A DNA stretch of 36,750 nucleotides from an uncultured Methanobrevibacter sp. (GTDB taxonomy: Archaea > Methanobacteriota > Methanobacteria > Methanobacteriales > Methanobacteriaceae): positions 1 to 36,750 of the forward strand of contig NZ_CADAJR010000027.1 in NCBI RefSeq assembly GCF_902788255.1, in the 5' to 3' direction. Both the position numbers and the translations under genes were made by a program. Below the pieces are notes generated by a model. The model saw only the letters and a list, made by a program, of their open reading frames with translations. It did no database searches and was not told where the DNA came from. Shown one piece after another: positions 26,082-28,355 of this stretch. Numbering within the stretch: the first letter of the stretch is position 1; each line of letters begins with the position of its first letter.

Positions 26082-26167
26082 TTTTTAGGTATGCCTAAAA
26101 AAATAGAAAGCTTTATATACTATCACGACAAAGTAATAAGTAGAGATGAAATTTAGGTTTACCTAAA
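26082..26167 (+). promoter_or_regulatory. Promoter flanked by two TTTAGG-N4-CCTAAA palindromes
   Basis: Palindrome 1 (26082-26101, arms TTTTTAGG / CCTAAAAA around TATG) lies upstream of a TATA box (TTTATATA, 26112-26119). Palindrome 2 (26152-26167, TTTAGGT-TT-ACCTAAA) lies near the expected start site. The half-site TTAGG resembles DtxR/IdeR-type metal-regulator operators; regulator identity is inference. No gene with a ribosome binding site follows directly. Confidence 0.6.
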
Positions 26168-26410
26168 ACACTCTAATCATTAGTCAAATAATGAAAACTC
26201 TCCAAAATTGGAATCTATTGAATTATATTTTCACAATTTTACTGGTCCAATATGTTCAACATAATACACAACATATAATGCTTAACTGCCAAAAGCATTA
26301 TAAATTCGTTAAATACAAGTCGTTGGAAAATTTAAAATCTGCCAAAATATAATTTTCCTCAAAAGGGTGTTTAAGCTAGTCACTTAAACACCAAACTACT
26401 CTCTTTTTTG
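26140..26410 (+). ncRNA. Candidate regulated structured RNA (about 270 nt)
   Basis: Downstream of the palindrome-flanked promoter there is no convincing coding gene. The stretch holds three inverted repeats: 26274-26302 (10-bp stem, 9-nt loop), 26325-26358 (8-bp stem, 18-nt loop) and 26366-26392 (10-bp stem, 7-nt loop). The last is followed by a T-rich tract (26404-26409) like a terminator. The 5' end is estimated from the TATA box. A 53-codon open frame at 26191-26352 lacks a ribosome binding site; it is the main alternative explanation. Confidence 0.4.
26366..26409 (+). terminator. Terminator of the candidate RNA
   Basis: Arms GGTGTTTAAG / CTTAAACACC (26366-26375 and 26383-26392) with a 7-nt loop, then six T at 26404-26409. 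The stretch from 26411 to 26550 is AT-rich without recognised features. Confidence 0.6.
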
Positions 26411-26551
26411 AAAAAACTTTAAATTTTATAGAATTCCAATTATCTTTTTAATATTATTAAACAATATAGAATCATCTGATTTTAAATATAAGAACTATTA
26501 ATAATTTATTTTTAATTTTACAATGCAAATAGGCACTTACAGTCGAAAAAC

Positions 26552-26612
26552 TTTATATAAATCCCCAATATATAAATTAACAAGTGCAAGGAACATGAAT
26601 GATAATTTGCAC
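26552..26612 (+). promoter_or_regulatory. Promoter and leader repeat of the 60-residue gene
   Basis: TATA box TTTATATAA lies at 26552-26560. The leader holds an inverted repeat GTGCAA (26584-26589) / TTGCAC (26607-26612), which could form a hairpin or an operator near the start of transcription. Confidence 0.45.
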
Positions 26613-26634
26613 ATGATGATTATAAGGTGATACT

Positions 26635-26817
26635 ATGAGTTTCATTGAGTCAAGCATTAACATGGTAAATTCTTCCGATGACGGTTTTAAAAAACAAAAA
26701 ATGTTTCAAGAAAAATATTGTGAAAAGAAATCATATGATATGAAAATCCAAGATATTAAACATGAAGTCAACTGGAGCAGAGATTTTTTCGGCTTCAAAA
26801 ACATTAAAGTATTCTGA
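26635..26817 (+). CDS. Orphan 60-residue protein of unknown function
   Basis: A 60-residue, lysine-rich soluble protein with no motif I recognise; it has one cysteine (YCEKK) and an aromatic end (WSRDFFGF). It is probably real because it has a TATA box and a very good ribosome binding site (AAGGTGAT, 5 nt before ATG). The stop codon ends 4 bp before the left terminal repeat of a decayed insertion sequence, so the original 3' end could have been altered by the insertion. Confidence 0.6.
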   Translation: MSFIESSINMVNSSDDGFKKQKMFQEKYCEKKSYDMKIQDIKHEVNWSRDFFGFKNIKVF

Positions 26818-28271: not shown

Positions 28272-28355
28272 TAAAGGTACAAATACCTTTATATACTTAA
28301 TAGGATAGATATTGAAACAATAAATTTAGGTATGCCGAAATTTTTAGGCATGCCG
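28272..28355 (+). promoter_or_regulatory. Peroxidase promoter with three palindromic sites
   Basis: An inverted repeat with 8-bp arms (TAAAGGTA / TACCTTTA, 28272-28291) overlaps the TATA box TTTATATA (28288-28295). Two tandem TTTAGG-YATG-CC sites follow at 28325-28340 and 28343-28354 near the expected transcription start. These match the palindromes at 26082 and 26152. AAGGAG precedes the start codon. Confidence 0.6.

Follow-up and report, generated by a model that had tools for sequence, protein, structure and literature searches.

The window, a 36,750-nt stretch of DNA from an uncultured Methanobrevibacter, carries a member of a conserved RNA gene family that lies under an iron operator. 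We consider it likely (probability about 0.7) that this locus encodes an iron-repressed, trans-acting, base-pairing small RNA, which would spare iron by acting at the starts of iron-protein mRNAs. Very probably such an RNA would shut off the translation of iron-using proteins, e.g., formate dehydrogenase, when iron is scarce.

According to the mechanism we propose, an iron-loaded DtxR-family repressor would close the promoter by occupying two palindromes placed around the TATA box and the start. As iron falls, the repressor would leave, allowing synthesis of an RNA of about 210–270 nt up to an intrinsic terminator. A duplex of about 10 bp could then form between its unpaired UCUCCAAAA seed and UUUUGGAGA at the ribosome-binding sites of the mRNAs for FdhA, HypC and a NifU-like Fe-S scaffold, and probably of flavoprotein and polyferredoxin genes, blocking translation and sparing iron.

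The RNA gene family and the copy in the window

When 341 bases spanning the locus were searched against relatives, each examined genome of the genus matched, in most cases strongly and often at several places. We collected 55 promoter-anchored units, 42 of which were of the window's type (type I) with a terminator. With a covariance model (R1) built from 35 sequences of relatives, 62 of the 67 genomes in the genus proved to carry the RNA, in one to five copies each; the 16 further genera of the family that were sampled yielded none. In Rfam the window was without a match and L117 had only chance-level matches. RyhB, PrrF, FsrA, IsrR or another Rfam family was rejected as the identity of the locus (no covariance model match), as was a tRNA, none being found.

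The aligned body consists of a variable first hairpin, an unpaired (A/C)UCUCCAAAA, a stem with a CACAA loop, a stem with a UCUGCC loop and a terminator hairpin, GGUGUUUAA/UUAAACACC, followed by a T tract. Both loops are near-invariant across copies. Over 27 pairs in 35 sequences, 94.6% of the cells were paired, compared with at most 52% when slid, and compensatory (two-sided) changes were found at 13 pairs, a figure reached by none of 500 shuffles. The terminator stem is among those that covary (GGCGUUU/AAACGCC in relatives). Thus the covariance search in other Methanobrevibacter genomes, proposed along with the original prediction, came out in favour of a structured RNA. The window sequence itself agrees: the folding energy of 26140–26412 is -53.2 kcal/mol (z = -4.8), and none of 200 dinucleotide shuffles was equally good. 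Three strong inverted repeats, the last with a T tract, had been described there. The last one stands as described; the count does not, as the family body has four stems and the second is broken in the window.

Features of the locus are listed in the table. With its own promoter and terminator, recognisable both in sequence anatomy and in conservation, it is a separate non-coding gene with a predicted transcript, the start of which is placed near 26140 from the TATA box and the end from the terminator.

Table. Features of the RNA locus (window coordinates)
Feature	Position	Strand	Remarks
Iron operator 1, TTTAGGTATGCCTAAA	26084..26099	.	5' of TATA box; same box upstream of feoB in relatives
TATA box of RNA promoter, TTTATATA	26112..26119	+	kept between both boxes in copies
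Small RNA gene, presumed transcript	26140..26409	+	R1 match 26197-26408, 59.3 bits, E 2.4e-08; fold
Iron operator 2, TTTAGGTTTACCTAAA	26152..26167	.	~12 nt downstream of presumed start
Stem-loop H1, CAUUAGUCAAAUAAUG	26178..26193	+	variable among relatives
53-codon ATG frame	26191..26352	+	judged no gene, unconserved
Seed, ACUCUCCAAAAUU	26197..26209	+	conserved; single-stranded in relatives; complement of UUUUGGAGA at Shine-Dalgarno sites
Extra segment	26238..26311, approximate	+	of window copy, by comparison with relatives; additional hairpin, loop repeats CUGCCAAAA
Stem-loop H3, GGAAAAUU..AUCUGCCAAAA..AAUUUUCC	26325..26358	+	near-invariant UCUGCC loop
Terminator hairpin H4, GGUGUUUAAG/CUUAAACACC	26366..26392 (arms 26366-26375 / 26383-26392)	+	alignment, covariation
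T tract after H4	26404-26409	+	

The copy in the window is, by its sequence, a diverged paralogue. Its own genome holds three more copies (C9:30632, C12:27278 and C12:35136), which score 100–112 bits with R1 compared with 59 bits for the window copy; typical copies of the family score 100–120 bits. About 60 nt of extra sequence, through which the 53-codon frame passes, breaks the canonical second stem (H2) and adds a hairpin repeating the loop CUGCCAAAA (at 26286; the regular one is at 26339). The loop UCUGCCAAA found at these two places is conserved nearly as well as the seed and is also doubled in a G022 copy. In the window copy, part of the seed can fold back into a small hairpin of 4 bp (CCAA/UUGG).

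A second RNA type (type II) has the same promoter layout and a different body: ACUCCGAUUGUUAUUAAAUUAG and CUACUCUC, then a AAUUAAAUAUG hairpin. It was seen at L113, L116, L131, L132, L136, L138, L022 and L156 (from 1503 on), often directly 3' of a type I copy, and several of these loci have a small Cys-rich frame immediately downstream of it. A tandem array next to feoB in G010 (L113:5979-7200) comprises three type I copies and one of type II; two near-identical copies in it suggest a recent duplication.

The operator, its linkage to feoB and the candidate regulator

That two near-identical palindromes bracket a TATA box was correctly seen from the start. In the window they read TTTAGG-N4-CCTAAA and lie 68 nt apart; the spacing between the two boxes is 67–72 nt in all 42 type I copies. 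The window's own genome, of 2.2 Mb, contains this pattern 14 times (two for the reversed control pattern), and seven of the 14 belong to loci of the RNA gene. Background was estimated from pattern searches, a 400 kb sample of the same genome and the window; boxes with at most one mismatch numbered four in the 400 kb sample (0.01 per kb).

The palindrome can be taken for an iron operator because the same box is located upstream of feoB across the order. An automatic count found it within 450 nt upstream in 24 of 30 feoB loci; L170, which was not scored automatically, has it as well, giving at least 25 of 30 against about 0.14 expected. At L165–L168 the box is located further upstream. As feoB boxes are also present in families lacking the RNA, the operator must be older than the RNA. 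The original prediction of metal or redox control of a structured RNA is therefore supported on the metal side, the metal being most likely iron; the candidate targets of the RNA were beyond what the window by itself could reveal.

The RNA gene itself is linked to feoB. Nine of the 13 genomes compared within the genus have a copy oriented divergently from feoB and at most about 1.5 kb upstream of it; mapping the loci directly gave the same picture. Of the two neighbours initially noted for the window, thi4 is not a general one, another recurrent site being the divergent intergenic region of feoB, and the peroxidase gene is outside the RNA locus, though it does have a near-perfect operator of its own. 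This one-mismatch iron operator (TTTAGGTATGCCGAAA, 28325–28340), followed by a second half-like box, sits between a TATA box and the start (28381) of the glutathione-peroxidase-like gene, which may thus share a regulon with the RNA. In G000, the window's own genome, two successive feoB genes (C12:36597 and 38816, L111) are located near a type I copy, and several relatives likewise carry two feoB genes.

A DtxR-family protein is encoded in 19 of 21 genomes (11 of 13 in the genus and all eight others sampled). It resembles the solved chains of IdeR, DtxR and ScaR, repressors of iron and manganese; with NCBIfam it comes close to MntR as well as DtxR while staying under all cut-offs. A search with PF02742, the DtxR C-terminal domain, was negative for the window's own genome and for G006. 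A palindrome at iron uptake genes, combined with such a regulator in the genomes, is what one expects of a DtxR-family operator. Judging from the feoB linkage, we take this protein to be what binds the box, presumably with iron and not manganese as the sensed metal.

The seed and candidate target mRNAs

The seed UCUCCAAAA is conserved and unpaired, contains an anti-Shine-Dalgarno sequence and is accessible in those copies of relatives that were folded. Its complement, TTTGGAGA, placed 2–11 nt before an ATG, has 41 matches in the window's own genome and eight for the control. Most of the 41 are chance sites within genes, and about nine are real gene starts: those of FdhA, a polyferredoxin, HypC, a NifU-like scaffold (just under the Pfam cut-off), two FMN_red flavoproteins, one having a cysteine cluster, a C_GCAxxG_C_C protein, a carboxymuconolactone decarboxylase-like protein and one unknown. 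Among 436 sampled genes, TTTGGAGA was located upstream of one and TTGGAG upstream of four. A strict Fe-S cysteine motif was found in 19 proteins of the sample, and the seed duplex energy, computed for all sampled genes, did not separate these from the others, so any targeting would be selective rather than general to Fe-S genes.

The leaders of three separate genes show the same pattern of co-occurrence with the RNA. In the fdhA leader, all nine genomes inside the genus, but none of 17 outside it, have (A/T)TTTGGAGATTATAAAATG or nearly this sequence; the closest genus has mainly TTATGGAGATTATAAAATG, i.e., the same Shine-Dalgarno sequence and spacer without the seed extension. The hypC leader has the extension in seven of nine genomes in the genus compared with none of 21 outside, and the scaffold leader has TTGGAG in six of six (four reading TTTTGGAG) compared with one of 13. 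For fdhA and hypC, the form TTTTGGAG of the RNA-bearing genus corresponds to TTATGGAG in the sister genus. Thus in all three genes the RNA-bearing genus has an extra TT before GGAG, which is almost never found in sister genera, although these keep the Shine-Dalgarno sequence. The genomes being related and not independent, a Fisher test on these counts is optimistic. Within the genus, the conserved unpaired seed is complementary to the start regions of the iron genes fdhA, hypC and scaffold. The polyferredoxin gene was rejected as a co-evolved target: its site is part of the coding sequence upstream and is also present beyond the genus.

Iron proteins are not generally enriched among the predicted targets: the enrichment is strong in G000 and weak in G010, where fdhA and polyferredoxin are the only iron proteins among about nine real starts with the pattern. 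The two near-identical copies in the G010 feoB array read AACUCCAAAA, for which the fixed seed pattern is not ideal. A possible second seed, the loop UCUGCCAAA, was examined against TTTGGCAG near starts; TTTGGCAG-ATG gave 38 matches with 23 for the control, which is not clearly above it. At L234 (~1495–1520) an exact fdhA-like leader, TTTTGGAGATTATAAAATG, is followed by only three codons and is perhaps a relic of an fdhA copy.

Known iron-sparing RNAs and alternative readings

The enterobacterial RyhB and the Pseudomonas PrrF1/PrrF2 share the iron-sparing logic proposed for the methanogen RNA, and PrrF1/2 are likewise duplicated in tandem. They differ from it in being Hfq-dependent and Fur-controlled, and no sequence relation to them was found. 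IsrR of Staphylococcus, an iron-repressed sRNA with two Fur boxes at its promoter and an intrinsic terminator, uses C-rich single-stranded regions to pair at Shine-Dalgarno sequences, has Fe-S enzyme targets including fdhA and is conserved over one genus (PMC9410917). Two operator boxes, an unpaired C-rich region suited to Shine-Dalgarno pairing, fdhA as a predicted target, the range of a single genus and the intrinsic terminator all recur in the RNA described here, and IsrR can be regarded as its nearest functional parallel. Unlike IsrR, our RNA has a DtxR-type palindrome instead of a Fur box, an archaeal host and several copies, and shows no sequence relation (no Rfam match). FsrA of Bacillus subtilis also pairs a C-rich motif with Shine-Dalgarno sequences and has iron-sparing targets (PMC9410917), but it is Fur-controlled and works with the FbpA/B/C chaperones; again, no sequence relation was found. 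In methanogens, sRNA162 and similar sRNAs of Methanosarcina mazei act on mRNAs in trans, as we propose here, but with other signals and targets and, as far as described, not in iron sparing (PMC3510493); they too showed no sequence relation.

A full-text literature search, with most subscription papers outside its reach, returned only bacterial iron-sparing sRNAs and unrelated archaeal ones. As far as we have checked, the class is known while an archaeal member with such control is new. The family most probably consists of iron-sparing sRNAs. On balance, we also favour the fuller reading of an independently arisen archaeal one, multi-copy, with a DtxR-type operator and recurrently located beside feoB in one methanogen genus, where fdhA and other iron-protein mRNAs would have gained matching nucleotides just upstream of the Shine-Dalgarno sequence. 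Iron-sparing sRNAs are found in several bacterial lineages without common ancestry; the archaeal case, if true, would be the same solution evolved in another domain, sharing even the IsrR target fdhA. Archaeal sRNAs for which both signal and targets are known are few. As the genus includes dominant gut and rumen methanogens, the RNA would tie formate-dependent methane formation to the supply of iron, and sister genera with and without it offer a natural comparison of the same mRNA leaders.

Other readings of the locus account for parts of these data. A structured iron-controlled RNA could bind or titrate a protein through its conserved loops without pairing to mRNA; the near-invariant UCUGCC and CACAA loops, which have no evident mRNA partner (see the TTTGGCAG-ATG counts above), and the duplication of the UGCC loop in the window copy and one G022 copy would fit. 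We consider this unlikely, as it leaves unexplained both the conserved unpaired anti-Shine-Dalgarno seed and the genus-specific TTTTGGAG at fdhA, hypC and scaffold. The related type II RNA, which immediately precedes small Cys-rich frames in the vicinity of feo genes, could suggest an iron-controlled leader or riboswitch of an adjoining gene. This is very unlikely for type I copies, which have their own terminator and differ from one another in the sequence beyond it. In the window, the next frame with a ribosome-binding site (AAGGTGATACTATG) has its own TATA box; this 60-codon frame (26545–26817) had no match in an NCBIfam search.

A copy number of one to five per genome, with some tandem copies, might also be expected of a dispersed repeat or mobile element carrying an iron promoter by chance. 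This is highly improbable, because the copies keep their place divergent from feoB across much of the genus, have a conserved seed and terminators and show compensatory base changes; neither a transposase nor terminal repeats were seen to belong to the unit. Finally, the locus almost certainly does not encode a short conserved protein. The leaderless 53-codon ATG frame, which the original prediction offered as the alternative to an RNA, does exist in the window, but it was rejected as unconserved over the 42 copies: the longest frames of the individual copies have a median length of 14.5 codons, and after the window's 53 the next has 39. The length changes between stems and the paired changes fit an RNA.
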